IMG/VR virus record: IMGVR_UViG_3300025430_000017
Coordinates: 1-64,000 of that record
Reading direction: 5' to 3' (one strand)
DNA from: a virus
DNA length: 64,000 nt
Part shown: in pieces, positions 3,161 to 63,866 of the stretch
Numbering within the stretch: the first letter of the stretch is position 1
Layout of the letters: every line of letters begins with the position of its first letter
Position numbers and translations under genes: made by a program
Notes under the pieces: model-generated
Databases searched by the model: none
The model's input: only the letters and a program-made list of their open reading frames with translations
Told to the model about the DNA's origin: nothing

Positions 3161-3830
3161 TTCGTTTTTGTTCCCATAATTTTTTTCTTGCTTCTGACAT
3201 CTTTCTTTTAGTTTTGTCTGACATCTTTCTACCTTTAAGTGTAGCACTTATTTTCTCTTTTTGCAAGTCCGACATTACTTTACCTTTTTGTGCGGCACAC
3301 ATTTTAGCACGGGTTTCGGCACTTACTTCTACTCCTAATCTGGAGCCTTTTTGAACACCTGTCTTGCCTTTATTCCAAGGAGTTTTACCTTTACCAGCTT
3401 CGCTTAATTTTTTTCTATGCTCTTCTGATTTTGTTTTACCTTTTAACGCTTCTGATATTCTTTCTTTGTGTGTATCTTTTCTTGGTTTCTTATTTGCTTC
3501 GGAAATAGTCTTTCTCCCTTTTTCTGATAGGTACGACCCGATCTTTATATCTTTGTTCCACGGAATAATGCCTGCCGATCCATCACCACCGTCTGTCCTA
3601 TTATGTAAAATACCTGTACCTATATCTTTTCGACCATACCATCTAATCATTCTACGCTCAATAGCAAATGCTCCAAGCTCTGTTAAATTTGTTTCTAATA
3701 TAACAATTCTATTTAGGTCTTTAGGAACAATAACAGAGTGAGACTTTTGCCACGCTCTGTCATCTTTCCCTTTACCAATATAATACGGTGTTAAATCTTT
3801 AGTTCTCAAATAAGCATATACATAAAACAT
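3150..3830 (-). CDS. GIY-YIG homing endonuclease with NUMOD-type repeats
   Basis: A 226-residue protein. The N-terminal GIY-YIG domain is read in [12 protein letters not shown] and [13 protein letters not shown] (residues 1-30), with the Arg helix further on ([12 protein letters not shown]) and the Asn-bearing [10 protein letters not shown]. The C-terminal half is a run of short basic repeats of the K-x-x-I-S-E-A-x-K-G-K type, the NUMOD3 DNA-binding repeats of phage free-standing homing nucleases. It lies directly upstream of the dpdA-like gene and overlaps its start. A late promoter and a hairpin covering the ribosome-binding site and start codon precede it (see 3825-3857). Confidence 0.85.
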
Positions 3831-3857
3831 AATAGTTCTCCTATATGTTTATTTATA
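3825..3857 (-). promoter_or_regulatory. Late promoter overlapping an RBS/start-codon hairpin (GIY-YIG gene)
   Basis: On the minus strand a perfect TATAAATA (3850-3857) is followed by a hairpin: AAACATA (3844-3850) pairs with TATGTTT (3825-3831), and TAG pairs with CTA inside it. The loop is GAGAA, so the Shine-Dalgarno AGGAG is in the upper stem and loop and the ATG is in the lower stem. Initiation about six or seven bases after the promoter octamer would begin near 3843 and delete the left arm, freeing the start region only in late transcripts. Confidence 0.65.
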
Positions 3858-17672: not shown

Positions 17673-18068
17673 TTAGTGATTGTAGAGAACAGATTGTACT
17701 TGACCGTCGTTGATCATAACAGTACTGCGAACCCACACAAAGTTACCGTAAAAGTTATAAACATCTACAGTACTGGTATTGCGATCCATGATTTGTGTAT
17801 AGGTGCTGGTAGTACCTACAACATTAAACCAGTCAGTTTCAGATGGGTTTGTGGCTAAAGAAGCCTGCATGGTAACAGTGCCTACAAAAGATGGACTACA
17901 GGTATACATTACTGTATGTAGTCCATCTCCGCTACTAAAATATCCATCGCCCTTTGCAGGATTACTTACATAGACAAGTGTGCTAGTACCGCTGTTAGGG
18001 TACTGTACTGCTACACTGGCAGTTCCGAGGTAGTTGATAAATTCAAGGGCTTGGCTAAGTGCTGACAT
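17673..18068 (-). CDS. Predicted virion structural protein (beta-rich, 131 aa)
   Basis: Starts MSALSQALEFINYLGTASVA and continues as short alternating beta strands rich in Thr, Ser, Val and Tyr (FVGTVTMQASLATNPSETDW, VYNFYGNFVWVRSTVMI, GQVQSVLYNH at the end). This composition is typical of small phage head-decoration or neck beta-sandwich proteins. A perfect TATAAATA late promoter in an inverted repeat precedes it, which supports late, structural expression. Its first 58 bases overlap the end of the next gene in another frame. Confidence 0.6.
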   Translation of the reverse strand: MSALSQALEFINYLGTASVAVQYPNSGTSTLVYVSNPAKGDGYFSSGDGLHTVMYTCSPSFVGTVTMQASLATNPSETDWFNVVGTTSTYTQIMDRNTSTVDVYNFYGNFVWVRSTVMINDGQVQSVLYNH

Positions 18069-18772
18069 GTGTTATCCTGATCTAGATTAATATTTATACT
18101 AGATCTTGGGATATGTTCTTCAACTTTCTTAACATCTTGTCCCATGAACAAGCCGATCATAGCCAGCGTACCTGAGTCTTCTACATAGATATAGGGGCTT
18201 TGATACCACCCCTTGACAAACCAATGAACAGTGCCTCTGGGAATCTTAACCTTTGAGCTATAGTTATGGATCCAAGATTCAAATCGTGCCTTGGTATCTG
18301 CTTTACAACTAGGACTAAAATATACCTTGTACTTGTATTTGTTAAAGGGTATTTTATTACACAATACTTTTTTATGTCCGTTATCGTTCAAATAGTCTAA
18401 TTCAGCCGCACTTTCTGGCTCATGTAATTCTACAATGTATTGGTCTAATTCCTTTACCAACTCGTTGTAAAGATCAGTATCCTTGCAATAGATATTAAAG
18501 AAATCACCTTCTACTCGAATTTGTAGATCTTGGTCCAGGAACGGTTCTACACTTCGTGTAAAGTTTAGTAGCCGCGCCTTTTCTTCGGCGCCAATGGATC
18601 TAAAATCCCAGTAGTTGGACATACCCGGTCTGGCTCGATTTAGGCAATAATTCACAACCTCGTCGATGCCGAGCCGTTTAACCATCCAAAAGTTCTTGCC
18701 CCAACATTCAATCTTGTAGGGCCATTTCTTATAGAATAGTTTAGATGTTTTCAGTGTTCGATGTTTCGCCAT
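18011..18772 (-). CDS. Hypothetical protein, Trp/Tyr-rich (253 aa)
   Basis: Begins MAKHRTLKTSKLFYKKWPYK and is rich in Trp, Tyr and Lys through its first half (ECWGKNFWMVKRLGI, NYWDFRSIGAEEKARLL). The second half has VKIPRGTVHWFVKGWYQSPY and YIYVEDSGTLAMIGLFMGQD. I see no known catalytic motif. It overlaps the ClpA end by 32 bases and the structural gene start by 58 bases, in different frames. Function unknown. Confidence 0.55.
   Translation of the reverse strand: MAKHRTLKTSKLFYKKWPYKIECWGKNFWMVKRLGIDEVVNYCLNRARPGMSNYWDFRSIGAEEKARLLNFTRSVEPFLDQDLQIRVEGDFFNIYCKDTDLYNELVKELDQYIVELHEPESAAELDYLNDNGHKKVLCNKIPFNKYKYKVYFSPSCKADTKARFESWIHNYSSKVKIPRGTVHWFVKGWYQSPYIYVEDSGTLAMIGLFMGQDVKKVEEHIPRSSININLDQDNTCQHLAKPLNLSTTSELPV
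18079..18105 (-). promoter_or_regulatory. Late promoter inside an inverted repeat (structural gene)
   Basis: Minus strand TATAAATA (18091-18098) lies in the 13-base loop between GATCTAG (18099-18105) and CTAGATC (18079-18085). The Shine-Dalgarno AGGA directly follows the right arm. Initiation about seven bases after the octamer would start inside that arm (near 18084), so a late transcript cannot form the hairpin, while read-through RNA can. Confidence 0.6.
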
Positions 18773-21551: not shown

Positions 21552-22391
21552 TTAAAATGTTATTTGTTTTAGAATATCTTTTTGTACTTGATTGAGTGCA
21601 GGAATAATAATGTTTACTGATATTAACATGCGTCCTTTGAATCTATTATCATTTACCTTAGGCATACCGTAGCCAGCTGCCGATAACATCTGTCCATGCT
21701 GTGTTCCCGGGTTTACAGTTAGTTCTAAAGTACGTTTATCAATAGTTTCTACTAGGTATTTTTTACCTAACATAGCATCGATGCAGTTAACATCAAGTTG
21801 GGTTACTAAATCATCGCCTTGTCTAATAAACTTAGAATGTGGTTGAACAGCAACAGTAAGATGTATATCACCCCTAGGAACACCTTGTATGCGATCATCG
21901 CCCATTCCGGATAATCGTAATGTCATACCATCGTTAATACCTGCTGGGATTTTAACTTCTAATACCTGATCACGACCGCTAGGCAATGTTAGGTTAGCAA
22001 TCATATCTTTGCCACTAAATGCTTCTTCTAATGTAATAGTAGTTTGTATGTTTAGTGTTTGATTGCGTGGTTGCTGTGGCCTTCCTTGTCCAAAACCAAA
22101 TCCAAACGGGCTACCGCCGCCACCAAACATACTATTGATAATGTCTTCAAACCCCGGAGGAACTCCGCCGCCAAAATGGCCACCTCCCCCAAACTGGGGT
22201 CTAGGGTTATCGTATTCTGCCCTGGATTCGGGATTACTTAAAATACGATATGCTTCTTCAACTTCTTGGAACTTACGAGTATCGCCACCTTTATCAGGGT
22301 GCCAGGCACTTGCTTGTTTCCTATAGGCCTTTTTGATTTCTTCAGGTGTGGCCGATTTAGAAACACCTAATATTTCATAATAATTATTCAT
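21552..22391 (-). CDS. DnaJ/CbpA-like co-chaperone without Zn fingers
   Basis: Start at MNNYYEILGVSKSATPEEIK (22391), preceded by GGAGG inside the small upstream ORF. The J domain is intact with HPD (ASAWHPDKGGDTRKF), followed by a Gly/Phe-rich linker of about 60 residues and the C-terminal substrate-binding beta domains (NIQTTITLEEAFSGKDMIAN, AGINDGMTLRLSGMGDDRIQ, TVAVQPHSKFIRQGDDL). No CxxCxGxG fingers occur, so it is CbpA-like (class B). It would stimulate the host DnaK. Neighbours are deformylase, ClpA and a remnant second J-domain start. Confidence 0.9.
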   Translation of the reverse strand: MNNYYEILGVSKSATPEEIKKAYRKQASAWHPDKGGDTRKFQEVEEAYRILSNPESRAEYDNPRPQFGGGGHFGGGVPPGFEDIINSMFGGGGSPFGFGFGQGRPQQPRNQTLNIQTTITLEEAFSGKDMIANLTLPSGRDQVLEVKIPAGINDGMTLRLSGMGDDRIQGVPRGDIHLTVAVQPHSKFIRQGDDLVTQLDVNCIDAMLGKKYLVETIDKRTLELTVNPGTQHGQMLSAAGYGMPKVNDNRFKGRMLISVNIIIPALNQVQKDILKQITF

Positions 22392-22483
22392 TTTTGTTTT
22401 TGCAATTGCCTCCGTGCCATCTTTGATAATTGCCAAGGACCTGCGTTTTTATCTACGCCTAATGTTTGATAATGATCTGCCAT
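22388..22483 (-). pseudogene. 31-codon ORF resembling the start of a J domain
   Basis: Reads MADHYQTLGVDKNAGPWQLS and ends RRQLQKQK, with its TGA overlapping the DnaJ ATG. Residues 1-13 (HYQTLGVDKNA) match the first J-domain helix start (YYEILGVSKSA), then the similarity stops before the HPD region. It is either a decayed second J-domain gene fragment or a small leader ORF that provides translational coupling and the GGAGG for dnaJ. A terminator lies just upstream of its start. Confidence 0.45.
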
Positions 22484-22485
22484 AA

Positions 22486-22520
22486 TAGAAAAAAGGTATA
22501 GTAAATTATACTATACCTTT
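22486..22520 (-). terminator. Rho-independent terminator
   Basis: A perfect 12-base inverted repeat (22492-22503 and 22509-22520, loop AATTA) is followed on the minus strand by TTTTTT after the CC of the stem. It ends transcription from the small exported protein gene at 22540-22743 before the J-domain genes. Confidence 0.75.
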
Positions 22521-22539
22521 AGAGTTAAGTCAACTAAAA

Positions 22540-22743
22540 TTATTTCTTATCTGGTACTACTTCTGCACCTTCTAATTTCTTATGAACTTTGATTTTTTTA
22601 CAATCTTGAACAGCCTTGCCATCTTTCATAACTGGCTTACCTGCTTTGTCTAGTTTGTCATGACAAACTTCTTTTACTTCTGCTTCGGCAAATGCCATGC
22701 CAACGAATGCTGTTGCTAATAATGCGATTAATAGTTTTTTCAT
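22540..22743 (-). CDS. Small exported protein with signal peptide (67 aa)
   Basis: Start at MKKLLIALLATAFVGMAFAE (22743), a classical Sec signal with likely cleavage after AFA, leaving about 46 residues. The mature part contains two Cys (VCHDKLD, QDCKKIKVH) that could form a disulfide in the periplasm and ends KLEGAEVVPDKK. It closes the lysis-side operon and is followed by a terminator. Function unknown; its location suggests an envelope role. Confidence 0.65.
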   Translation of the reverse strand: MKKLLIALLATAFVGMAFAEAEVKEVCHDKLDKAGKPVMKDGKAVQDCKKIKVHKKLEGAEVVPDKK

Positions 22744-40302: not shown

Positions 40303-41307
40303 TTATTCTTTCAATAAATCTGCTAAAAGTGATTCTGGCATTTTAACAATAAATGCAGCATTATCTTGGAATCCAAAGGACAACAATAAGTCTCCTTTAT
40401 AAAATGTTGCTCCACAGCAAAACTCGATATCAGCCTTCATGAAACTAAATGTGTCAGTATATTTGATCAAGTTCCAGTTTTTATCCCAAACTAGAAATCT
40501 ATGAAGATATGTTCCGTCCTTTTCTCCTGCAGGACTCTTAAACAAGTTTACCTCGTGTATCAAAGCAATATAATAATCGCCGTACGGAATAACATGGCTA
40601 CTTCCTCTAAAGTCTGGAACTCCTTGAATGTACGTGGTTTCATCTAAATGAATAGTAGTTGTAGTATTGTTTACCGGATCAAATTTTACAACTTCTGTTG
40701 GATTACACCATTTAACGTATGTAAACGGTTGATCCAAGACTGGCATCCAGTTTTTTTCGCAATATGTATCGTTTAGTTTAGTAGCGGGGATTCTTGTTCT
40801 TTTTATTTCTTTTGCTGAGCTACTTGAAATCTCTAACTCAGACAGTTCCATACGTCCTTGTCCATTAGTTGTGGTATCTCTACGAACACCACAATGATAA
40901 AGCGTATCATTCCATCGAAATAATCTAGCATCTTCTAGACCAATAAACTCCCAAAGTGGTTCTACATCTAACTTTGATGTATCTACTTTGTTTACTGTTT
41001 TAATGGTTAAATCTTCATTTAGTTCAGCAATATAATTCCAAGTACGCAGTTTAATATCGTTTTCAGGATGAATATATTGTAAAGGCCCCCAACGATGTTG
41101 GAATTGTTTGCGCTCAGAATGGTATAATGTATAGTTTACATGGCGAATGTTACACAGGATTTTGTCTCCATCTATATAAATGGAAGGGTTCATTAATCCA
41201 GTGCCATTGGTTTGATCTGCTGGAATTATGAGTGGATGTATGCTGCCACCGGCATCTATGGCACATTTGACCAAGCCGTACTTTTTAAATTTGGATATTA
41301 AGCTCAT
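40303..41307 (-). CDS. Glycosidase-like beta-propeller protein (GH130/GH43-like)
   Basis: 334 residues. LMNPSIYIDGDKILCNIRHV and WEFIGLEDARLFRWNDTLYH have the Asn-Pro and GxEDxRLF landmarks of GH130-type propellers, followed by YCEKNWMPVLDQPFTYVKWC, VPDFRGSSHVIPYGDYYIAL and DIEFCCGATFYKGDLLLSFG. These enzymes cut or phosphorolyse mannosides. The protein may degrade or remodel host glycan, or serve as a partner of the upstream fusion protein's substrates. It has a late promoter within a 12-base inverted repeat covering the RBS. Confidence 0.7.
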   Translation of the reverse strand: MSLISKFKKYGLVKCAIDAGGSIHPLIIPADQTNGTGLMNPSIYIDGDKILCNIRHVNYTLYHSERKQFQHRWGPLQYIHPENDIKLRTWNYIAELNEDLTIKTVNKVDTSKLDVEPLWEFIGLEDARLFRWNDTLYHCGVRRDTTTNGQGRMELSELEISSSSAKEIKRTRIPATKLNDTYCEKNWMPVLDQPFTYVKWCNPTEVVKFDPVNNTTTTIHLDETTYIQGVPDFRGSSHVIPYGDYYIALIHEVNLFKSPAGEKDGTYLHRFLVWDKNWNLIKYTDTFSFMKADIEFCCGATFYKGDLLLSFGFQDNAAFIVKMPESLLADLLKE

Positions 41308-41308
41308 G

Positions 41309-41345
41309 TAACCTTAAATAATTTTAGACAAACTATTTAAGGTTA
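41309..41345 (-). promoter_or_regulatory. Late promoter within RBS-sequestering inverted repeat
   Basis: Perfect 12-base arms TAACCTTAAATA (minus strand, 41334-41345) and TATTTAAGGTTA (41309-41320), loop 13 bases. The left arm ends in the late-like CTTAAATA, so transcription would start in the loop near 41327; the right arm holds the AAGG Shine-Dalgarno four bases before the ATG at 41307. Confidence 0.6.
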
Positions 41346-43789: not shown

Positions 43790-46700
43790 TTATATGGCTG
43801 TATTTGGAAAAATCAAATATGAAGAGCCAGTAGTGTAAACTGTACTCAACATTTGTTCAACAACAATACGGTCTATGGTAAATTTAAGTTGATTAAAGTT
43901 AAATCCGCTGGTGTTTGCTGCACTGTTAACTCTGCTTACTATCTTAGCCCCTTGCTTGGCATTAGCATAACATATTACAACTCCGTTAATAAATCCAACA
44001 CCTGAGTTGATAGCAGTTTGTTGCCAAAGCGGTAATAGATTTGGATTTATACTGATTGTTCCTGAGTTTAAACTTGCTAGGTTAGATTTCATATTGGCTA
44101 AACTACCAGGGTAATAAGTTTTTCCATTTATTTGAACACTATGTAAAGAACTATGATGGTCGCTTACTGGCACATATACTACATCATAGATTGCGTTTCC
44201 GTTATTGTCTATAGCTGTAATACTACTTACAGGTCCAAAATATAGTTGTTCTTTGTGAAAGTTTTCCTGTAACGCAGATACATAATCAGTAGATGAGTTT
44301 AGTTCTTGAATGCCATACTCTAAATATGCCTTAATTTTAGATTTTAATCCAAAATTAGGATCATCTGCACGGTATATTAAACTAGCAGGAAACACAGATG
44401 AGTTATTAATAAAAGTATTATATGCTGTTCGTTGTGCCGCTGGCAACAGTGGACTTAGATATATATTGGTATATGGTAGACTAGTGCCCTTAACTGTAAA
44501 TGTAAAACTTTCTGCTGTACTAACAGCGGTAGTATAAACTCCGCTAGCTACAGTATTTGCCCATGATACATTGTTGTAAACAGTGCCAGTGGTTGCAACA
44601 ACAGTAATAGTGTATGTTCCTGAAGCAGTAGTAACTCCTATAATATCTCCATTGTTTGTTAGGGTAAGCCCACCTGGTAATGCAGTTGATCCAACTTGTG
44701 AGTATACTAATGGATATTGAGTTTGTATATGTGTAGCTGATATATGTAGATTACTAGGTTCTTCGGCTATTAATGTACCTAAGTTTGTAGGCCCTGACCA
44801 AGATATTACATCAGCATTACTTTGTAGTACAGTAAGAGTAAAAGTATTAACAACAGAAATTGACGATCCAATAAATTTACTTACTTTGGTAGCCGTGATA
44901 GGGATATTATAAGATTGTCTGTAGTTTGTTTGTGCATTGATATGACCATACAGATACCCGCTATTGGTGTCCAGAGTTAATCCCAAAGGTAAAACAGTTG
45001 AAGTACTATAGGTTAAAGGACCTGCCCACGGTTCGGGATCGTAGGCAGTAACCGGAAGATATTGATTACTGTTATCTTTAATGATTCCTAAATCTGTTCC
45101 ATTTATAAATTCTGGTGCCTGTATCGAACTAGTATTGGTAACAGTCATTACAAAAGTCTGCGTGGATGTTGTATATCCATTAGTTGCTTCTACTGTAAAT
45201 GATTTGTTAACAAACTGATTTAGGCCTACCTTGGTATCTAATATTCCCGATATTATTCCAGATGGGCTAAAAGTTAAGTTGTTTGGTATTATACTAGTTA
45301 GATTATATCTAATCTGATAATCTGATAATGCACCCCCCGGCGGTCTTGCTTCTAGCTGAATACTTACATAATCTCGATCTATAAAAGTTCCTAAAGTACT
45401 TGGTGTAACCCAAACTGGTGAGTCTTCTCCAATATAATATATTGAAAATGATTTATCGGCTATTTGCGAAAGTAGTTGACTAGATGCTCTAACTGTAAAA
45501 ATATAGTTTGAACTGGTTGTTAGATTAACAGGGTTTCCTGTTATAACTCCTGTGGAAGTATTCATACTCAATCCAGGAGGCAAAGACCCAGACAATATAT
45601 TAAATGTTGCAGTTGGATCAGACGTTTGTAATGGAGGATTTGGTGTCCATACTCCTGGCCCTGCTTGACCTAATACTGAGTTGCTGGTTATCCAATATAG
45701 ATTGTTTAATATATATAGGCTATAAGCAGATGATGTAGATAGCCTTGTAGGATAACTGCTATCAACTACCGCAACCGTAAATGTAAATGTACCTGCTATA
45801 GTAGGAGTACCTGATAAAATAAATGTATTAGTATTAAAAGTTAACCCACTGGGCAAAGAACTAGCAGATGAGAAATAAGGACTAGTTCCTCCAGTAACTG
45901 AATATGTTACTGGATTAATTGTTCTTGATATAATATCATTGGCTAACGATGTTGGCGATAAAGTTAAAGGTACTGCTTGTACATTAATGTTTACGGTTGC
46001 AGTATTTGAAATACCATTTATATTACTGGCCTGAAAACTAAATGAATCACTCCCATCAAAACCAACAGTTGGTGTATATGTTATTGTAGCATAAGTTGAT
46101 GTGGTTGCAGTTCCATTTAGTGGAGGAGTAACTATATCAAAATATACAGGAAAATTAGTAACAGATAGAGATATTGAGTTATTTAAAGAATTTTGATAAA
46201 TCGAAACATTGGAGTTAGATGCTATCGGAAGATCTGGCGGGATAACTGTAATGCTTACAATACCCGCCGGCGATGTTCCTATAGAGTTAGTTGCATTATA
46301 AGATACAGTATCAGTACCTGTATAACCGATATTTGGTGTATATAAAATTTCTAATCCGGATACATTTGCAGTTCCGTTAGTTGGTAAGGACACTATTCCT
46401 ACACTAGTATAAACATTAGTAATAGACAACGGCAATATATTATTACTACTATTGTATGCAACTATTGTTGATGTATTTCCTACGGCCGGCGGCGAAGACT
46501 CTAGGTATATTGATTGACCATTAGGAGTACCTAATCCTGTAACAGCATCCCATCCTGTTGTGGCTGCATATCCTGTTGTTACATTAGTGGCATTATTGCC
46601 AACAGTTATATCATTAAAAAATCTAGTATTTTGATAAAAATATGGATTTACATATCCCATATTTTTACCTAATAATGAATTTAATCTTGCAATCAATCCT

Positions 46701-48082
46701 GCCCATAATGGAGCGGCAGCACTAGTACCTCCGTATTGGACTAATTTGTTAGATTGAGAAGTACCGAGATATGCATAATATTGATAACCAGATGCAGGAT
46801 CAGCATTGGCTGCTACATCAGGCACACCTCTAGTAGGTAATGTTGTAGCAGAGCCATTTCCTGTTGTTCTAGAATATGGAGTATAAGTTAATCCTGATTG
46901 CCAAGACGGTGTTGTATATGCTTGACTAAGCCCTCCCCCACTACCACTGCCGCCTGGATAAGGTCCTTGGTACCAGGCTATTTCTTGTGCTATAGTGTTG
47001 TTAACATTAAGTGTTAATGAAGTTCCGCCAACACCTAGTACATAAGGACTGCTGGCCGGCCAGCATACTTCGACAGGACTACTACTTCCACTAAATGTAC
47101 TTCCATAATCTCCTGAAGCTGCAACAATGGTTATCCCCATGGCCTTGGCAACAGAAAATACCTGTGAATCTATTGTTGCAATAAAACTAAGAGGATACTG
47201 AGATGGGCTAGTAACACCTTCGGCTCTTGCCCAACTGATAGAAATAACGCTAGGTTTGTTAATACTGTCGTCTATAATGTAGGTTAATATATCTTGCCAA
47301 GTATTAATAAAATAAACAGCAATAGTTGCTCCTGGAGCAACACCGCCTGCAACATAAATGTCCAACATAACTTCTGTATTGTAGTTTGTTTGACTAATGT
47401 TATTAGACGAATCAGTAGGTGGTACTACTACATTTGGTACTGGAAGACCGTTTTGAACAAAAGATGATTGAATGTTTTGTGCGGTAAATCCACCACCAAA
47501 CTCTAATAATGCAATGCATGTGCCTGCACCTGTACTATCAGGAAATTGATATGCGCTGGCAACCGCGGTAGGTAATAATGAAACCGATCCTGAAAGTGAT
47601 TCAGCAGTTGCTTCTGAACGTATTCTTGTTGTATCGTGTGGTTGATCTAGATCAAAAACATATGTTATTACATTTGCAACATTATTAGGAACAGCTAATG
47701 AACCTTCGTAGGTATTGTAAGTTCTAGTCGGTGTGGTTACTGTGGATAGTGTTATTCCAAATAAACTATTGATTTGTTCTATAGTTCCAGAAAGTTTTAC
47801 TAATGCTGTTCGATTATTAGAACTTACTACAGTAAGTCCATTTTCTTCTGCCCAAGATGAAACTATATATAAATCGGCGTTAAAAGCACCAAAGTGATCA
47901 GTGAATGTATCTCTATCTAGGGGAGAATGTGTGCCCGCATCAATACCTTGAACAAACTGCTCTAGGGTAAGTCCATCCGGATTGGTACGTCTTTTTACCG
48001 AAATACTAAATGTAAGTGTTTCAGTTATATCTACCGGTGTTATTGATATAGCATCGGATGGAAAACTTAGGGGCTGAATCAT
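43790..48082 (-). CDS. Virion-associated S53 sedolisin (kumamolisin-like) protease with Ig-like repeats
   Basis: 1430 residues. Residues 1-150 resemble the S53 pro-domain (FSISVKRRTNPDGLTLEQFV). The catalytic core has Glu237 and Asp241 in NTEVMLDIYVAGGVAPGATI, Asp325 in AASGDYGSTF and Ser454 in GGTSAAAPLWAGLIARLN, with a calcium-site-like end WDAVTGLGTPNG, so all key residues are intact. Residues 530-1250 are Ig/cadherin-like repeats (TFNTNTFILSGTPTIAGTFT and relatives). The final 180 residues (YRADDPNFGLKSKIKAYLEY) look like a T4-type virion attachment module. A tail-mounted protease that digests envelope protein is suggested. Confidence 0.85.
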   Translation of the reverse strand: MIQPLSFPSDAISITPVDITETLTFSISVKRRTNPDGLTLEQFVQGIDAGTHSPLDRDTFTDHFGAFNADLYIVSSWAEENGLTVVSSNNRTALVKLSGTIEQINSLFGITLSTVTTPTRTYNTYEGSLAVPNNVANVITYVFDLDQPHDTTRIRSEATAESLSGSVSLLPTAVASAYQFPDSTGAGTCIALLEFGGGFTAQNIQSSFVQNGLPVPNVVVPPTDSSNNISQTNYNTEVMLDIYVAGGVAPGATIAVYFINTWQDILTYIIDDSINKPSVISISWARAEGVTSPSQYPLSFIATIDSQVFSVAKAMGITIVAASGDYGSTFSGSSSPVEVCWPASSPYVLGVGGTSLTLNVNNTIAQEIAWYQGPYPGGSGSGGGLSQAYTTPSWQSGLTYTPYSRTTGNGSATTLPTRGVPDVAANADPASGYQYYAYLGTSQSNKLVQYGGTSAAAPLWAGLIARLNSLLGKNMGYVNPYFYQNTRFFNDITVGNNATNVTTGYAATTGWDAVTGLGTPNGQSIYLESSPPAVGNTSTIVAYNSSNNILPLSITNVYTSVGIVSLPTNGTANVSGLEILYTPNIGYTGTDTVSYNATNSIGTSPAGIVSITVIPPDLPIASNSNVSIYQNSLNNSISLSVTNFPVYFDIVTPPLNGTATTSTYATITYTPTVGFDGSDSFSFQASNINGISNTATVNINVQAVPLTLSPTSLANDIISRTINPVTYSVTGGTSPYFSSASSLPSGLTFNTNTFILSGTPTIAGTFTFTVAVVDSSYPTRLSTSSAYSLYILNNLYWITSNSVLGQAGPGVWTPNPPLQTSDPTATFNILSGSLPPGLSMNTSTGVITGNPVNLTTSSNYIFTVRASSQLLSQIADKSFSIYYIGEDSPVWVTPSTLGTFIDRDYVSIQLEARPPGGALSDYQIRYNLTSIIPNNLTFSPSGIISGILDTKVGLNQFVNKSFTVEATNGYTTSTQTFVMTVTNTSSIQAPEFINGTDLGIIKDNSNQYLPVTAYDPEPWAGPLTYSTSTVLPLGLTLDTNSGYLYGHINAQTNYRQSYNIPITATKVSKFIGSSISVVNTFTLTVLQSNADVISWSGPTNLGTLIAEEPSNLHISATHIQTQYPLVYSQVGSTALPGGLTLTNNGDIIGVTTASGTYTITVVATTGTVYNNVSWANTVASGVYTTAVSTAESFTFTVKGTSLPYTNIYLSPLLPAAQRTAYNTFINNSSVFPASLIYRADDPNFGLKSKIKAYLEYGIQELNSSTDYVSALQENFHKEQLYFGPVSSITAIDNNGNAIYDVVYVPVSDHHSSLHSVQINGKTYYPGSLANMKSNLASLNSGTISINPNLLPLWQQTAINSGVGFINGVVICYANAKQGAKIVSRVNSAANTSGFNFNQLKFTIDRIVVEQMLSTVYTTGSSYLIFPNTAI

Positions 48083-48123
48083 GTAAATCCTCTAGAAACT
48101 TAAAGTCTATAGAGGTATTTACC
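48083..48123 (-). promoter_or_regulatory. Late promoter within RBS-sequestering hairpin (sedolisin gene)
   Basis: Minus strand GTAAATACCTCTA (48110-48122) pairs with TAGAGGATTTAC (48083-48094) over 12 bases with one bulged A; loop 15 bases. The left arm contains the late-like GGTAAATA (48116-48123), with an expected start near 48109 at the loop edge. The right arm holds the AGAGGA Shine-Dalgarno just before the ATG at 48082. Confidence 0.6.
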
Positions 48124-48130
48124 TAAAATA

Positions 48131-52345: not shown

Positions 52346-52363
52346 TATTTTTCTCCTATGTTA

Positions 52364-52392
52364 ATAATAGCATAGGCAGCAGAATTTGTAAA
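52364..52392 (-). promoter_or_regulatory. Sigma70-like promoter before queD
   Basis: Minus strand TTTACA (52387-52392), 17-base spacer, TATTAT (52364-52369). The predicted leader of about 12 bases contains AGGAG before the ATG at 52345. Confidence 0.5.
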
Positions 52393-52423
52393 GCGGGAAT
52401 GATGCCCAAGGCCGCTATTAAAT

Positions 52424-52984
52424 TTATTCAAACCCAAAACCTGGAATATTTTTTCTAATCCTAGTTCTTAATGTTTCTGTCGACATTCCAAGTGCTATTG
52501 CAGCATCATTCATACAAGGAAATACTCCAATCGGAGTTTTTACTTTTTTGGCTCTAACACTGTTTCCGCCTTTTGGTTGTTTTGATTTTATCTCTTTTAA
52601 TTTTAATATAGTTTCGGGTTTATGTTTTTTACCATAAAAAGAAGTCTGGTTACCAGTCTTTCCCCAATTTGGATTTTTTTCTCCTTTGAGTCCAGGACTA
52701 CCGGGTGCTCGACCATCTCTTCCATTTTCTGGTCTTAAATTTGCCCAGTCTTTAGATTCGACAATATTATTTTTTTTAGAAAAATCCAAAGCAAATTTTT
52801 CGCATTCGTCTATATTAGTAAATTCCCATACTTCTAATGTATCAATATCTTTTCCGTGAACTTTTAAATGCCGTCTCCAATGTTTTCCAGAACCTAAATA
52901 CACATAAGGATCTTTAGTAGCAGTCATTCCGAAATATTTTAATTTTGTTATTTTATGTTGTTTTACATATAGATAAATCTTCAT
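52424..52984 (-). CDS. GIY-YIG homing endonuclease, second copy
   Basis: 186 residues from MKIYLYVKQHKITKLKYFGM (52984), with AGGGAGAG upstream. The N-terminal GIY-YIG variant reads IYLYVKQH and KYFGMTATKDPYVYLGSGKH, then the helix WRRHLKVHGKDIDTLEVWEF. The C-terminus has a NUMOD-like repeat (FYGKKHKPETILKLKEIKSK) and a helix-turn-helix (MNDAAIALGMSTETLRTRIR). It differs in sequence from the first GIY-YIG gene but shares its hairpin plus late-promoter control. It lies upstream of queD. Confidence 0.8.
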   Translation of the reverse strand: MKIYLYVKQHKITKLKYFGMTATKDPYVYLGSGKHWRRHLKVHGKDIDTLEVWEFTNIDECEKFALDFSKKNNIVESKDWANLRPENGRDGRAPGSPGLKGEKNPNWGKTGNQTSFYGKKHKPETILKLKEIKSKQPKGGNSVRAKKVKTPIGVFPCMNDAAIALGMSTETLRTRIRKNIPGFGFE

Positions 52985-53009
52985 AGGACTCTCCCTATGA
53001 TTATTTATC
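52981..53009 (-). promoter_or_regulatory. Late promoter and start-codon hairpin (second GIY-YIG gene)
   Basis: Minus strand GATAAATA (53002-53009), then TCATAGG (52994-53000) pairing with CCTATGA (52981-52987) around the loop GAGAGT, which holds the Shine-Dalgarno; the ATG is in the right arm. Expected late start near 52995 removes most of the left arm. Confidence 0.6.
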
Positions 53010-53045: not shown

Positions 53046-53219
53046 TTATTTAAGTTCCTTGATATCTTGTTTGATTTTTTTAAGTTCGACGGATATTTCA
53101 TCAATCATATCCAACTCTTTACGACGGCTACAAACAGTTTGTACCAATGTATACGCAAATAAACTCCAACCTAATAAACCACCTGTAAATAAAAATGCCA
53201 ATATAAAGTATTGTGCCAT
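53046..53219 (-). CDS. Small membrane protein with coiled-coil tail (57 aa)
   Basis: Starts at an ATG at 53219 after GGGAGAATC: MAQYFILAFLFTGGLLGWSL, a TM segment, then SRRKELDMIDEISVELKKIK, a charged helix ending QDIKELK. It is alone between clpP and the GIY-YIG gene, with its RBS inside a 12-base inverted repeat. Function unknown. Confidence 0.6.
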   Translation of the reverse strand: MAQYFILAFLFTGGLLGWSLFAYTLVQTVCSRRKELDMIDEISVELKKIKQDIKELK

Positions 53220-53223
53220 AATG

Positions 53224-53267
53224 ATTCTCCCATAAGTGTAATTATTTACATAAGATTATGGGAGAAT
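53224..53267 (-). promoter_or_regulatory. Late-like promoter in the loop of an RBS-sequestering inverted repeat
   Basis: Perfect 12-base arms ATTCTCCCATAA (53256-53267, minus strand) and TTATGGGAGAAT (53224-53235). The right arm contains the GGGAGAA Shine-Dalgarno. The 20-base loop contains TGTAAATA (53243-53250); a start about seven bases after it falls near 53236, immediately before the right arm. Confidence 0.6.
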
Positions 53268-57733: not shown

Positions 57734-58429
57734 ATGAACGCGAAAGAATTTGTTAACAAAATTGTAGCGGATAACCAAGCACTTTTTAAAGCTAGCCAGC
57801 ACAATGTTAAAGCTTACTTTGACAGTAAGCCGGCTCAAGAAGAACTAGTTGAACACTTTGTTGGCCGTATGGTCAATGAGCGTATGAACATGGTTGAAAT
57901 CGCTAAACAAGTTGCCGAAATGGCCGCTGCCGCCGATCCGGTAGAGCTACAGTTGTTGACTCAACAAGCTCACGACGAAGCTGTTCACTTCCGTCTAGTT
58001 AAGGAAGTTATTGAACACATCCAAGGTTCGCCAGTTGATGTCGAAGCTGCTATTGCCGCCGAAGCTGCTAAACCGACTGCCAAAGGTGCTGGTCTATTGG
58101 CTAAGTATCAAGCTGAAACTGACGCCGCAGCCTTAGCCGCTTACCAGTTGGTTGCTGAAGGTCGTGCTGAAGCTGTTTGGGATCAAATGGCAGATTGTAT
58201 CGAAGACACTTTTATCTCCGGTGCCTATCGTAAGATTGCCAAGGACGAAGGTTTCCACAGCAAGATCGGTGCTCGTAAACTAGAACAACTAGTTACTACT
58301 GCTGAAGAACAAGCTCGTGTACAAGCACTTGTTGAAGCAATGCGTAAAGACCTGTATGAAATTTCATGCAAGAACACCGTTGCCGCTGAAGCTGGTAAAG
58401 AACTAGTAGCAGACGCATACGGGTGGTAA
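57734..58429 (+). CDS. Ferritin-like di-iron four-helix protein
   Basis: 231 residues. Helix pairs hold two E...DExxH-type metal sites: HFVGRMVNERMNMVEIAKQV with QQAHDEAVHFRLVKEVIEHI, and EGRAEAVWDQMADCIEDTFI with AKDEGFHSKIGARKLEQL. The arrangement is that of ferritin-like oxidases and oxygenases, so an iron-dependent oxidation is likely, but substrate and product are unknown. It heads the plus-strand cluster with TctA/TctC and a 2OG oxygenase, and is followed after one base by the amidotransferase. Confidence 0.65.
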   Translation: MNAKEFVNKIVADNQALFKASQHNVKAYFDSKPAQEELVEHFVGRMVNERMNMVEIAKQVAEMAAAADPVELQLLTQQAHDEAVHFRLVKEVIEHIQGSPVDVEAAIAAEAAKPTAKGAGLLAKYQAETDAAALAAYQLVAEGRAEAVWDQMADCIEDTFISGAYRKIAKDEGFHSKIGARKLEQLVTTAEEQARVQALVEAMRKDLYEISCKNTVAAEAGKELVADAYGW

Positions 58430-58430
58430 T

Positions 58431-58982
58431 TTGAGAATAGCTCTAAGCCAAAGAATTATCAAGTTTAGAGGCCGAGCGTATGATTCAATCGAGCACGGGT
58501 GGTACTCGTACTTGAAAGAGCATACGCTCTTTTTTGTCCCTAACAGATTGGATCAAGATTTCACAGCCATTGCTGATGAAGTTGATTGTTTTATTATCAC
58601 AGGCGGCGACGACCGTTTGATAAGACGCACAACAGAATTAAAACTTGCAACTCAAATGATGTTGCATAATAAACCTATATTAGGTGTTTGCCATGGATGT
58701 TTTTTATTAACAGATACCCTGGGAGGCACCGTGCTAAAGAAAGCCGGACATAGTGGTGGCATTACACACGATGTGAACTATAAAGGTCAAAAGCATCAGG
58801 TAAACAGTTTTCACGGATTAAACATCAAACTGCCACAACACAGTGCTACAGTATTGGCCACAGATGATGATGGCGATTGCGAAGCGTGGATAGATGGCAA
58901 TGTTGCCGGAGTTGTTTGGCATCCTGAAAGAACCAAGGACCACTGGCTTCCCGATGAAATACAAAACTTAATGAAACTATAA
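58431..58982 (+). CDS. Class I glutamine amidotransferase-like protein
   Basis: 183 residues from a TTG (58431), one base after the upstream stop, with GGTGG nearby. Catalytic Cys in ILGVCHGCFLLTDTLGG and His/Glu in GVVWHPERTKDHW match the GATase1 triad; CFIITGGDD is the oxyanion strand. It would release ammonia from glutamine (or hydrolyse a gamma-glutamyl conjugate) for a partner. No synthetase partner is visible in this cluster, though the ferritin-like gene precedes it. Its stop overlaps the TctA start. Confidence 0.8.
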   Translation: MRIALSQRIIKFRGRAYDSIEHGWYSYLKEHTLFFVPNRLDQDFTAIADEVDCFIITGGDDRLIRRTTELKLATQMMLHNKPILGVCHGCFLLTDTLGGTVLKKAGHSGGITHDVNYKGQKHQVNSFHGLNIKLPQHSATVLATDDDGDCEAWIDGNVAGVVWHPERTKDHWLPDEIQNLMKL

Positions 58983-60436
58983 TGGACTATGTTCACTATC
59001 TGCCATATTTGCTAGTTGGAACATTATATGGTTTTATTTTTGGTATTATACCTATCGCAGGTGCAACAACAGCATTACTAACTGTTTATGCTTTTATGGA
59101 TTACTTTAGAGCTGATCCATATTCCCTAGTAGTATTCACTACTTCGATAATTATTTCGTCTAGCGTGGGAGATTTGTTTTCTAGTGTAGTCATGAATATA
59201 CCGGGCGGAGGTGGCAGTGCCGCCACAATGGTTGATGGATTCCCACTAGCAAAGCGTGGTGAAGGTGCAAGGGCGTTGAGTGCCAGCATCTTTAGTGCCT
59301 GCGGACAAGGCCTATTTTGGGGTATATTGGTATTTGCATTTCTTCCTTACTATGCCAATGTTGTTACATATTTTGGCATACCTGAAATGTTATGTTTCTT
59401 ATTGCTAGCCTTGACCACAGTGACCTTTGTTAATAACGAATACTGGGCAAGAGGATTGTTTGGTGTATTTTTAGGAATATTCTTAGGACTGGTAGGAACC
59501 AATCCAGTTACCAATGCTGAACGATTTACTGGAGGTTGGTTTTATCTTGCTCATGGTATACAGATATTGCCACTAATGTCGGGATTGTTAGCAATGCCTG
59601 AAATATTAGAATCCTTGTTCGATAAAGCATCATATACACCAGTGTCTAATAATATTGTTAAACAAATGTGGCAAGGTGCAAAGGATGCTTGGCAATATCG
59701 TTGGGATAGTATGCGTTCGGGATTGATCGGTGGATTCATTGGCTTGTTACCCGGTGTAGGTGGTGCAGTTGTTGATTGGTTAGCGTATAGTCAAACAGTG
59801 GCCGCTGGTAAAAATGATCTAGTTAAGTTCGGTGAAGGAAATATAAGAGGTGTTGTTGGTGCTGAAGGTGCTAACATGGCACAAAAATCTACAGCATATA
59901 TTCCTACTATCTTGTTTGGTGTTCCCGCAGCACCATTCGAAGTCATTGTCATGAGTCTGTTTATGTATGTTGGATTAGAAATGGGTAGTCCGACTCTACT
60001 TGCTGATCCCGTATTCTTTCATGCTTTGAACTATAGTTTTATATTAAGTCTGTTGTTGACATTTTTAATAAGTCTATGGTTTGTTCGTTGGGCCACGATG
60101 CTTACCCGTGTGCCAGTAATGTATTATTTTATTCCGTTGATTATTTTAATATTTTGGAGTTGCGCCGAATATACAGGTGGTTGGGAAGATTATGCTATGT
60201 TAATAGGCTGTACGGTGCTAGGCATGGTTCTAAGATATTTTAAGATCAGCAGAGCCTGTGTATTAATAGGATTTGTACTAAGCCCGAGGATTGAACTAGT
60301 GGGTGAACAGTTCTTTACCATTTATCAAATCGACGAACTACTACATCATCCTATATCCGTTGGATTATTAGTTGCTACATTGATATCTATTGTTTACGGA
60401 ATATTTTTTAGCAAAACAAAAATTAACTATCATTAA
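58982..60436 (+). CDS. tctA: Tripartite tricarboxylate transporter permease TctA
   Basis: 484 residues with about ten hydrophobic helices. The TctA signature SSVVMNIPGGGGSAATMVDG followed by FPLAKRGEGARALSASIFSA is intact, as is the second repeat GGFIGLLPGVGGAVVDWLAY. It would be the large permease of a TTT system, moving tricarboxylates or related small acids with a sodium or proton gradient. The TctC-like binding protein follows after nine bases. No TctB gene is present between them, so host TctB would be needed or the system works without it. An unusual phage gene. Confidence 0.9.
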   Translation: MDYVHYLPYLLVGTLYGFIFGIIPIAGATTALLTVYAFMDYFRADPYSLVVFTTSIIISSSVGDLFSSVVMNIPGGGGSAATMVDGFPLAKRGEGARALSASIFSACGQGLFWGILVFAFLPYYANVVTYFGIPEMLCFLLLALTTVTFVNNEYWARGLFGVFLGIFLGLVGTNPVTNAERFTGGWFYLAHGIQILPLMSGLLAMPEILESLFDKASYTPVSNNIVKQMWQGAKDAWQYRWDSMRSGLIGGFIGLLPGVGGAVVDWLAYSQTVAAGKNDLVKFGEGNIRGVVGAEGANMAQKSTAYIPTILFGVPAAPFEVIVMSLFMYVGLEMGSPTLLADPVFFHALNYSFILSLLLTFLISLWFVRWATMLTRVPVMYYFIPLIILIFWSCAEYTGGWEDYAMLIGCTVLGMVLRYFKISRACVLIGFVLSPRIELVGEQFFTIYQIDELLHHPISVGLLVATLISIVYGIFFSKTKINYH

Positions 60437-60445
60437 GAGGAAAAA

Positions 60446-61501
60446 ATGAAAAAACTATTATTGTCGTTATTGTTTCTAACAGGTTTGGCACATGCCGATT
60501 ACACATTTGTTGTACCTCAAGAACCCGGTGCCGGTACTAGCGTGTGGACAAGCATCGTGGCACATGAACTAGAAAAGAAACTAGGTGAAAAGATTGTCAT
60601 TAGACACATTCCAGGCGCCAGGGATATTCCCGGGGCCAATAAGTTTCAAGACGAACTAAGATTTGATAATAAGACTGTAATGGTTGCACACGGTGGCAAT
60701 GCTGAGAGTTATCTAGTTGAAGATGTGCGCTACAACTACAACGACTGGGAAGCGATAGGTGCAATGAACATTACTATTCAAACAGTACGCAGAACCGACA
60801 AAGATGTATTTCAAGACCTAAGATTTGCCGCAGGTTCTGGTAACAATCCAGACATGATTGCTATGACATTGTTGTTATGTGGTGACTTGCCAGATATTCA
60901 AGCATATGCAAGTTGTTACAATAGCAAGAACTTTAAGTTCATTCCGGGCATGAACGCAGGTGAACGCAGACTATCACTAACTCGAGGTGAACTAACTGCT
61001 ATGCGTGAAACACCCAGTGCTTATTTGAAGTTCTTTACTACTATCCCTAATGTTGGTCCATGGTTCAACGAAGGTGTACTAAACATTAAGACAGGGCGAG
61101 TTGTTGCTGACCCTAACTTCCCTAAAGAACAATTCTTTGAAGAAGTTTACAAAGCTAAGTGGGGCAAATATCCCAAGGGTGATTTGTATGACACCTATAT
61201 GTTAGTAAAGAACTGGCGCGATGTATTACAAAAAAGTTTATGGGTTAACAAAGGTAACCCTAATCGTGACAAACTGCGCCAAGCATTAAAAGAGATGTTA
61301 GCTGACACAGAGTCAATGGCAGTTATTGAAAAGGACAACGGTAAATATGAATTCCTAGTTGGTACACAAGTTAATGATGCTATGAAGCACTTAGAAGCAT
61401 TGACTACTAAGAAAGCATTAAAGAATCTAGTATGGTGGAACAGCACGGTGTTTAAACAAAATGCTATATATAAAGACAATATTGCGAGTATTGCAAAATG
61501 A
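60446..61501 (+). CDS. tctC: Tripartite tricarboxylate transporter substrate-binding protein TctC-like
   Basis: 351 residues behind AAGAGGAAAAA. A signal peptide MKKLLLSLLFLTGLAHADYT exports it to the periplasm. VVPQEPGAGTSVWTSIVAHE and GEKIVIRHIPGARDIPGANK resemble the Tct/BugT-type binding cleft (P-x-x-G-G-x-x-D), followed by VAHGGNAESYLVEDVRYN and a long C-terminal helix set. The ligand cannot be read. It partners the preceding permease and is followed without gap by a sulfotransferase-like gene. Confidence 0.75.
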   Translation: MKKLLLSLLFLTGLAHADYTFVVPQEPGAGTSVWTSIVAHELEKKLGEKIVIRHIPGARDIPGANKFQDELRFDNKTVMVAHGGNAESYLVEDVRYNYNDWEAIGAMNITIQTVRRTDKDVFQDLRFAAGSGNNPDMIAMTLLLCGDLPDIQAYASCYNSKNFKFIPGMNAGERRLSLTRGELTAMRETPSAYLKFFTTIPNVGPWFNEGVLNIKTGRVVADPNFPKEQFFEEVYKAKWGKYPKGDLYDTYMLVKNWRDVLQKSLWVNKGNPNRDKLRQALKEMLADTESMAVIEKDNGKYEFLVGTQVNDAMKHLEALTTKKALKNLVWWNSTVFKQNAIYKDNIASIAK

Positions 61502-62118
61502 AATATATATTTGTAGCTGGTGCACCTGGAAGTAAATGGAGTAGTGTTGTTAAAAACATTTATTATAGCTCCGATATTGATCGAAGTGACTATACTGATA
61601 TTCGTACCTATTATCACGATGCGTCAGGTACTATGGATTTGATGCACCTTGGGGCCTATTACGACCCAGGAATGGAGTTTGGTGGATTCTTTGATAGGTT
61701 ACAAGATTTTACTAAAGAGCAATGCGAAAAAGAATTTGATAAACCATTCGACGGGAATGGAATACGCATTGTTAAAAGTCATGTATTTGCCCATCAAATA
61801 GACTATCTAAAGAAAACTTGGCCCGATTGTCCTGTTGTACTAGTACATCGTGGTAATGATGCTTGCTTGGGCTGGTGGGTAAAATGCGGTCATTTTGATA
61901 TCACATATCCTAGTTATGTAGGTTATTACAAAAATTTAAAAACCATGGCAGGTATTATTCAAGATCAAAATCGAGATATATTACAGGCTTGGAACACTTT
62001 TAAAGGCATTGATGTAGATACAAATCAGCATTTAAGCAAAGCATTAAATATTACTATTCCCCCGGTTGAATATTTCCAAAATTATCCGGCTAACGATATA
62101 AAGGTAAAGGTAATATGA
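61498..62118 (+). CDS. Sulfotransferase-like P-loop protein 1
   Basis: 206 residues: MKYIFVAGAPGSKWSSVVKN has the strand-P-loop-helix of PAPS-binding 5'-PSB sites (G-x-P-x-S-K/G), and GIRIVKSHVFAHQIDYLKKT with CPVVLVHRGNDACLGWW resembles the 3'-phosphate-binding part with its Arg-Ser. It may move sulfate from PAPS to an alcohol or amine. It starts four bases before the end of tctC, so it is in the same operon. Confidence 0.6.
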   Translation: MKYIFVAGAPGSKWSSVVKNIYYSSDIDRSDYTDIRTYYHDASGTMDLMHLGAYYDPGMEFGGFFDRLQDFTKEQCEKEFDKPFDGNGIRIVKSHVFAHQIDYLKKTWPDCPVVLVHRGNDACLGWWVKCGHFDITYPSYVGYYKNLKTMAGIIQDQNRDILQAWNTFKGIDVDTNQHLSKALNITIPPVEYFQNYPANDIKVKVI

Positions 62119-62780
62119 AAAAGAGCAGTTTTGATAAACTACGTGAAATAAGTCAGTATCATTTTGATAATGATACCATTGATCCTAGATGGGACACCGT
62201 TATTCAACTAGGTAAAATAGCACCTAACTGGGATGACGAGTTAGAACAGATACTTACAGAAAGTAAACCAGCTAACTGGGAAACACGCGGGTTTAAGGGA
62301 GAAGGCGTGTTTGTGCCTAAACCAGAACTAGAAGATGAAGAATATGATTTGGAAAGAGTTGGTATTGATCCCAAAGTAATCATTACTGATCTTGCTTGGC
62401 AACTTGGCCCTAAGTTGCAGGCTATCAGTGATAATTTTGGATTACAAGATTGTATGAATCGTATTCATGTACAGCGTCCAGGACAACTATGGCATTTACA
62501 TATTGATAAATTGTACAAATGGTTTCCGGAAAAACCAGAAAGAGTACTACGAGTTTTTATCGCCTTAACCGATTGGCAACCTGGACAGTTTTGGGAATAT
62601 GGCAATTTTGTTCATCGTAACTGGAAGGCCGGAGATGTTACTACATTTGATTGGCGTAACGTTCCTCATAGCACGGCCAACGCCGGATTCCATCCTAGAG
62701 TAACATTACAAATTACCGGTGTTATGACAGATAAGACTGACGACTATTTGAAAGAGTTAGCTAAGACAAATCCTCAATGA
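62115..62780 (+). CDS. Fe(II)/2-oxoglutarate-dependent oxygenase-like protein
   Basis: 221 residues. The facial triad is in MNRIHVQRPGQLWHLHIDKL (His-x-Asp) and WRNVPHSTANAGFHPRVTLQ (distal His, then Arg for 2-oxoglutarate), the jelly-roll pattern of aspartyl/asparaginyl-hydroxylase-like enzymes. It would hydroxylate a small molecule or peptide. It sits between two sulfotransferase-like genes, so the hydroxyl it makes could be the acceptor for sulfation. That link is a hypothesis. Confidence 0.7.
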   Translation: MKKSSFDKLREISQYHFDNDTIDPRWDTVIQLGKIAPNWDDELEQILTESKPANWETRGFKGEGVFVPKPELEDEEYDLERVGIDPKVIITDLAWQLGPKLQAISDNFGLQDCMNRIHVQRPGQLWHLHIDKLYKWFPEKPERVLRVFIALTDWQPGQFWEYGNFVHRNWKAGDVTTFDWRNVPHSTANAGFHPRVTLQITGVMTDKTDDYLKELAKTNPQ

Positions 62781-63430
62781 AAAAACTTTTAATAGTAACA
62801 GGTCCACAGGGATCTGGCAATCATATATTCAGCCGTTTACTAAGCCTTCATCCTGATGTGGAAGGGTGGACTGACATGTTAAACAACTATTGGGTACCTA
62901 GTGATCAGGAACCTTTTGCCGAGTATTGGGTTAATCCTGAACTATTAACTGAGGACGTATTTGAAGGTAAAGATTATTATTTTGCCAACGTCAGTTGTCC
63001 GTTCTTTTTTAATGGTACAAGGTATGTACCTAAAATTTTAGAAGTTGCAGAACGTGCTAAAAGTTTTGGAGTTAACGTGGAGATTGCTATCGTAGTTCGC
63101 GATCAAAATATAAATCGGGTCCAGCAGTTGCGTGTTCGTAAAGAACATACAACCCCTATAGCACAAAAATACTACTATGAAACTTTATTGCCTAGTGAAT
63201 TTCCTGTTCATTTTTTAGATCATGAAGCTTTCTTCCTTCATACAACTCACTATTTAAAATGGGTTAGTAAAATATTAAATTTCCCCATTGCCTATGACAA
63301 TCCTGATATTATGAAATTTATTACTGATGATGCTAATCATAAGTATGTATCTGCAATAGATACACATTGGTTAGATGAAGTAATACTTGCAGGTTGTCAG
63401 CCTACCAGAGAGGAACGACTAAATGGCTAA
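62777..63430 (+). CDS. Sulfotransferase-like P-loop protein 2
   Basis: 217 residues: MKKLLIVTGPQGSGNHIFSR with a GPQGSGNH P-loop like those of sulfotransferases, NVEIAIVVRDQNINRVQQLR as the 3'-phosphate-binding strand and Arg, and a helical C-terminus (HYLKWVSKILNFPIAYD). It overlaps both neighbours by four and eight bases. Substrate unknown. Confidence 0.6.
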   Translation: MKKLLIVTGPQGSGNHIFSRLLSLHPDVEGWTDMLNNYWVPSDQEPFAEYWVNPELLTEDVFEGKDYYFANVSCPFFFNGTRYVPKILEVAERAKSFGVNVEIAIVVRDQNINRVQQLRVRKEHTTPIAQKYYYETLLPSEFPVHFLDHEAFFLHTTHYLKWVSKILNFPIAYDNPDIMKFITDDANHKYVSAIDTHWLDEVILAGCQPTREERLNG

Positions 63431-63866
63431 AAGAATATTGATTATGGGATTACCTGGCTCTGGTAAAACTACTATTGCTTCGTTGTTAGCAGAAAAACTT
63501 GGAGCAGATCATTTTAATGCTGATGCTGTTCGCAATCAGTTTAATGATTGGGATTTTAGTAAGGAAGGGCGTATTCGGCAAAGCCTACGTATGCGTGAGT
63601 TATGCGATGCTAGTACTGCTGATTATGCCATTGCTGATTTTGTTTGCCCATTGCCTGAAATGCGTAACAATTTTGATGCACATTATACCGTCTGGATGGA
63701 CACCATACAACAAGGACGCTTCGAGGATACAAACAAGTTATTTGTACCACCCGAAGCGTTTGATATATGTATTACAGAAATGAATTCAGATTATTGGAGT
63801 GATTATATTACTCTGAATCTTCCCATTCAACAGATATCCAACCTAATTTCTTTAGATCTTCTTTGA
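63423..63866 (+). CDS. Adenylylsulfate kinase-like protein (CysC-like)
   Basis: 147 residues: Walker A ILIMGLPGSGKTTIASLLAE, then DHFNADAVRNQFNDWDFSKE, GRIRQSLRMRELCDASTADY and IADFVCPLPEMRNNFDAHYT, which follow APS kinase closely (NADxVR, DWDFSxxGRxxQ). It would phosphorylate adenylylsulfate to PAPS, the donor for sulfotransferases, two of which lie directly upstream. Shorter than CysC (about 200), so a truncated C-terminus or related nucleoside kinase is possible. Its last 59 bases overlap the convergent gene. Confidence 0.7.
   Translation: MAKRILIMGLPGSGKTTIASLLAEKLGADHFNADAVRNQFNDWDFSKEGRIRQSLRMRELCDASTADYAIADFVCPLPEMRNNFDAHYTVWMDTIQQGRFEDTNKLFVPPEAFDICITEMNSDYWSDYITLNLPIQQISNLISLDLL

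Follow-up and report, generated by a model that had tools for sequence, protein, structure and literature searches.

Late-promoter-like octamers nested in translation-start hairpins at a minority of genes in a T4-related phage

How is a gene expressed when its promoter lies inside an inverted repeat that also covers its translation start? The question is raised by the leader of a 1430-aa S53 kumamolisin-type protease with Ig-like domains (43790-48082, minus strand), encoded in a 64,000-nucleotide stretch of viral DNA, hereafter the window. At 48083-48123, on the same strand, a hairpin (score 19.5) carries the octamer GGTAAATA (48123-48116) in its left arm and a GAGG Shine-Dalgarno in its right arm, with the ATG adjoining. 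The initial annotation had placed such repeats at six loci and proposed that early read-through RNA would be folded shut and late RNA open, as a genome-wide rule. Our analysis indicates that late-promoter-nested hairpins are a minority arrangement and not the rule. At four loci (41309, 48083, 52981 and 53224), a late promoter is probably nested in a translation-start hairpin, with translation mainly from the gene's own promoter.

The window comes from a T4-related phage and lies within a 68.4-kb virus record; T4-type DNA polymerase and clamp loader genes are present. A 97-kb record (G002) is 100% identical over window positions 1-42244 and continues upstream of the window, so that about 123.5 kb of one phage can be read; counts for this phage refer to these joined, overlapping records. 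Relatives were found via the clamp loader and reach sizes of 322-353 kb. A gp55-type late sigma factor is encoded in G002 (E 1e-26), and gp55 (phrog_234) is also present in G013, G015, G019 and G020. The gp45 family gave a weak HMMER match in one of 11 records, which are incomplete. An Rfam scan matched no family, and a tRNA scan returned zero tRNAs.

In this phage and most relatives, coding-strand TAAATA upstream of genes outnumbers its reverse complement two- to fourfold (26 vs 14 in this phage; 60 vs 18 in G013, a relative with 48% G+C), and its distance to the start codon is often 25-45 bases. A second promoter class has TTGACA/TATAAT boxes. By analogy with T4, TAAATA may be read as the late element. 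The coding-strand enrichment and the gp55 homologue in G002 bear out the earlier view that the octamers are real late-promoter-like elements, and a TAAATA-type octamer is found at all six loci.

The six inverted repeats and their octamers were recovered exactly where they had been annotated, all on the minus strand. The Shine-Dalgarno or ATG falls within the hairpin at 3825, 41309, 48083, 52981 and 53224; at 18079 the arm merely abuts the Shine-Dalgarno. With transcription starting about 5-6 bases past the octamer, as inferred from T4, the start would lie in the left arm or loop at all loci (at the loop's end for 18079), as had been expected. Octamers, hairpins, statistics, compensatory evolution and predicted accessibility were computed. 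RNA folding energies were -15.3 (41309), -14.6 (48083) and -15.8 (53224) kcal/mol, and weaker at 52981 (-8.3), 18079 (-6.2) and 3825 (-5.7 kcal/mol). Each locus was tested against 1000 dinucleotide shuffles of both flanks that left the octamer in place (floor p=0.001), the resulting p-values being uncorrected for the earlier reader's picking of the sites. The hairpins at 41309 and 53224 reached p=0.001, both at the test floor; those at 52981 (p=0.034) and 48083 (p=0.035) were nominally significant, and those at 18079 (p=0.054) and 3825 (p=0.18) did not beat chance.

At 53224-53267 (minus strand), a 12-bp perfect hairpin (score 28) has its left arm at 53267-53256, TGTAAATA in the loop (53250-53243) and its right arm, with a GGGAG Shine-Dalgarno, at 53235-53224. 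The gene behind it (53046-53219, minus strand), downstream of the head protease gene, encodes a 57-aa protein, hydrophobic over an N-terminal stretch, that is possibly a membrane protein and had no Pfam match above the cut-off. Relatives supply 34 distinct leaders from the position behind the head protease gene. In these, TAAATA is kept 13-32 bases before the called start, the octamer stays within the loop or left arm, and the arm pairs differ in 26 of 28 strong stems. In a mispairing test of these 34 leaders, own arm pairs scored a mean of 22.0 vs 16.0 for mispaired arms (z=10); when each 70% cluster was represented by a single leader, the 21 that remained gave z=8.2. Compensatory change on this scale, in 34 leaders at one locus, is evidence of selection on pairing itself. 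Under neutral scoring the stems of this family contain 18 G-U pairs vs seven A-C mismatches, as expected for a sense RNA hairpin. The median distance from the inferred start to the right arm that follows is 2 nt, which agrees with what the mechanism set out below needs. When the 34 leaders were folded, the mean unpaired probability of the -14 to +3 region was 0.31 in the read-through RNA vs 0.55 in the late RNA.

These comparisons bear on the reading of the palindromes as DNA operators, at which a repressor would bind and shut off the late promoter they overlap, in the way I-TevI represses its own promoter. The palindromes do overlap promoters, and the known autorepression of I-TevI provides a precedent (PMC2988022). 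However, the arms vary almost freely among orthologues with pairing kept, a freedom incompatible with recognition by a sequence-specific protein, and G-U pairs exceed A-C mismatches, so that we consider operators very unlikely.

The second leader with strong co-variation belongs to a gene (40303-41307, minus strand) for a five-bladed beta-propeller with a GH130/GH43 glycoside enzyme fold. Its 16-bp hairpin (41309-41345, minus strand; score 31.5) holds CTTAAATA in its left arm (41341-41334); a single base separates the AAGG of the right arm from the ATG. The propeller enzyme of the initial annotation is upheld at the level of predicted fold by an AlphaFold2 model (pLDDT 89) and by Foldseek matches to beta-1,2-mannobiose phosphorylases (E down to 3e-9, TM 0.5-0.66). 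Among orthologues, nine of 17 stem positions have changed in both arms without loss of pairing, around an unaltered ATAAAT; the 28 leaders gave a Fisher p of 1e-14, although as orthologues they are not fully independent. Pairing rather than sequence is thus conserved at 41309 and 53224, and such conservation is limited at 48083 and 52981. One orthologue group of the propeller gene (L192-L210) is mostly without a significant stem, so the hairpin at this gene comes and goes. In leaders L173-L190 only 5-12 bases separate the end of the octamer from the ATG, and a clear Shine-Dalgarno is missing from many; their late RNA may thus be almost leaderless.

Behind the hairpin at 48083, the annotated 1430-residue protease was confirmed as kumamolisin-type by its match to kumamolisin (PDB 1t1e, E=6e-84) and to the Pfam families Pro-kuma_activ and He_PIG. 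In the corresponding leader of G016 both arms are kept around a different loop, and in that of G006 an unrelated 16-bp stem surrounds the same GGTAAATACC element. Because the inferred start is within the left arm, late RNA would retain some of the stem. The phage kumamolisin has a prodomain, a GGTSAAAP serine motif and Ig-like repeats, and its C-terminal part reappears in shorter proteins of relatives.

At 52981-53009 (minus strand), GATAAATA (53009-53002) is followed by a TCATAGG/CCTATGA hairpin with GGGAG in its stem and loop and the ATG (52984-52982) in its right arm, ahead of a putative homing endonuclease gene (phrog_314; 52424-52984, minus strand). Close relatives keep GATAAATA and then CATAGG/CCTATG, with one compensated change (L423). 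This locus also fits a loose terminator pattern, as would be the case if the repeats were intrinsic terminators of the upstream gene that by chance precede the next start codon. We judge that explanation very improbable: what follows the hairpin at the other loci is a start codon and no T tract, the Shine-Dalgarno or ATG sits in the right arm, and the octamer remains in the loop or left arm in relatives.

The remaining two loci gave a different picture. At 3825-3857 (minus strand), TATAAATA (3857-3850) precedes a weak AAACATA/TATGTTT hairpin that holds the ATG, with the Shine-Dalgarno in its loop, at a gene (3150-3830, minus strand) for a putative GIY-YIG-like homing endonuclease with NUMOD3 repeats (phrog_314). 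Several relatives retain the left arm; among 32 distinct leaders of this endonuclease family a single one had a significant hairpin, and that one was without the octamer. A motif search for more homing endonucleases in loci of this kind gave three leaders, none of them significant. At 18079-18105 (minus strand), a 7-bp repeat with TATAAATA at 18098-18091 lies inside the coding sequence of the ORF 18011-18772. Its octamer is likely real. We rejected the repeat as a control hairpin, as the octamer is kept but the stem lost in L137/L021 and the Shine-Dalgarno is outside the stem.

The claim of a hairpin over the translation start therefore stands for 41309, 48083, 52981 and 53224, through statistics or compensatory change in relatives, is weak for 3825 and fails for 18079. 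As new members of the arrangement, two loci are well supported, two moderately and one weakly, and one is rejected. The failure of 3825 and 18079 against shuffles, together with the absence of the feature from most late leaders, is what one would see if AT-rich leaders formed such repeats by chance and a reader had picked the best ones. Chance is refuted for 41309 and 53224, where p=0.001 is joined by strong co-variation in relatives, and stands for 18079 and partly for 3825; as a general account we give it hardly any credence.

Exactly such an arrangement is known for T4 e, soc, 49, I-TevI, I-TevII, I-TevIII and segB and for Aeh1 mobE (PMC3014915, PMC2988022). At T4 e, soc and 49, the long early RNA hides the Shine-Dalgarno/AUG, and the late RNA is without the left arm (PMC3014915). 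The precedent of T4 lysozyme and I-TevI invoked by the initial annotation is accordingly found in the literature (PMC3014915, PMC2988022), and was recovered in T4 by the same code. At 41309, 48083, 52981 and 53224, the hairpin would likewise surround a T4-type late promoter and hold the Shine-Dalgarno and/or AUG on its 3' side. Read-through RNA from upstream would contain both arms and hide the translation start; RNA from the late promoter, beginning about 5-6 bases past the octamer, would miss the left arm, wholly or for the most part, and be open. Each gene would then be translated mainly off its own late promoter, as are T4 e, soc, 49 and I-TevI. The transcription start is taken over from T4, and the block and release of translation, like the identity of the silenced RNA, are inferred.

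The late promoter is placed as at T4 e, soc and 49, in the left arm or loop of the hairpin. The genes differ, being a kumamolisin-type protease, a GH130/GH43-like propeller and a 57-aa protein, the arm sequences are unrelated, and the arrangement is known here from sequence rather than from RNA mapping. With a late octamer, a hairpin and the ATG in the right arm, 52981 and 3825 resemble the homing endonuclease leaders of T4 and Aeh1 (PMC2988022). Unlike the I-Tev, segB and mobE leaders, they precede free-standing genes of the phrog_314 group, with modest support at 52981 and weak support at 3825. In the fold-back of IS10 and IS50, an inverted repeat silences transposase RNA entering from outside, and the native RNA is without one arm; those are transposons, whereas the elements considered here are phage late promoters.

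How widespread the arrangement is was assessed by counting hairpins with a score of at least 18 that span the start, against octamer-keeping shuffles. Such hairpins were found at three of 15 TAAATA leaders in the 123.5 kb of this phage (0.45 expected), at 12 of 130 late leaders in nine related records (3.67 expected) and at 11 of 29 in T4 (1.27 expected), which is thus richer in them than this phage. The starts used at 52981 and 53224 escaped the gene caller, so that the figure for this phage is up to two too small. As a positive control, the same pipeline recovered I-TevI, segB, e, 49, I-TevII and soc in T4 unprompted. The scan against shuffles therefore supports the annotated geometry as occurring above expectation, but most late leaders are without it, and a genome-wide rule is contradicted by both the phage and its relatives. 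When the mispairing test was pooled by genome, late promoters gave p=0.011 here and p=0.004 in G006; the other six genomes tested were not significant. Among all leaders, hairpins and TAAATA were associated with an odds ratio of about 2 at score 18 and not at all at score 24, so that the strongest hairpins show no particular preference for late leaders.

The upstream neighbours are a tail fibre gene at 41309 and the head protease gene at 53224. As both look structural, the silenced RNA may itself be late. This favours a more general reading, in which any entering RNA, early or late, is silenced, either promoter class may be nested, and the gene answers to its own promoter alone; we hold this to be a serious possibility that falls somewhat short of an even chance. 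In its favour, start-spanning hairpins (score at least 18) occur at 10 of 33 sigma-70 leaders in T4 (1.5 expected) and at six of 139 in relatives (3.0 expected), the pooled mispairing test on sigma-70 promoters gave p=2e-4, and a CCTATG/CATAGG hairpin around the -10 box of a QueD-like gene is conserved. In this phage the count was one of 12 (0.2 expected). Against it, the sigma-70 excess is modest outside T4 and absent at a score of at least 16 (7 vs 7.3), early promoter calls are consensus matches only, and the QueD-like leader arms hardly vary, so that they carry little information on pairing. Taken with the structural upstream genes, the T4 sigma-70 hairpins make "read-through versus locally started" a better fit to the data than "early versus late". 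One may go further and suggest, tentatively and as an extension less likely than not, that T4-type phages generally insulate their genes by nesting promoters of the sigma-70 and late classes alike in start-site hairpins, so that RNA is translated only if it began at the gene's own promoter; in some relatives the late RNA of the propeller gene would be almost leaderless and begin a few bases from the AUG.

In T4 (AF158101; L248-L251), hairpins span the sigma-70 starts of the leaders of regB, denV, alc, alt.-3, nrdC.8 and 45.2, with the Shine-Dalgarno in or beside the right arm. A literature search, mostly without subscription papers, returned no description of start-site hairpins at T4 early promoters as a class; this parallel excess can be checked in published T4 transcriptomes. 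The QueD-like leader (52346-52400, minus strand) has a TTTACA-17-TATTAT promoter with the CCTATG/CATAGG arms around its -10 box, and its hairpin is conserved in about 30 relatives, where the loop measures 6 to 11 bases and the arms are nearly invariant.

Nesting of late promoters in start hairpins would extend a classical T4 control, known for few genes, to uncultured T4-like phages and to new gene classes. It yields a testable prediction of the timing and RNA source for the kumamolisin-type protease, the glycoside-enzyme-like propeller and the small protein.

Two further features of the window were observed. A plus-strand cluster at 57734-63866 encodes a TctA-family tricarboxylate transporter protein (E 1e-83), a class-I glutamine amidotransferase and an AAA/APS-kinase-like protein, with a PHROG match in none of the six proteins scanned. 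At 22437-22540 (minus strand), an element TTGACT...GGTATAGTATAATTTACTATACCTTTTTT that is promoter-like and terminator-like together precedes the gene 21552-22436, and was found again in G009 and G013.
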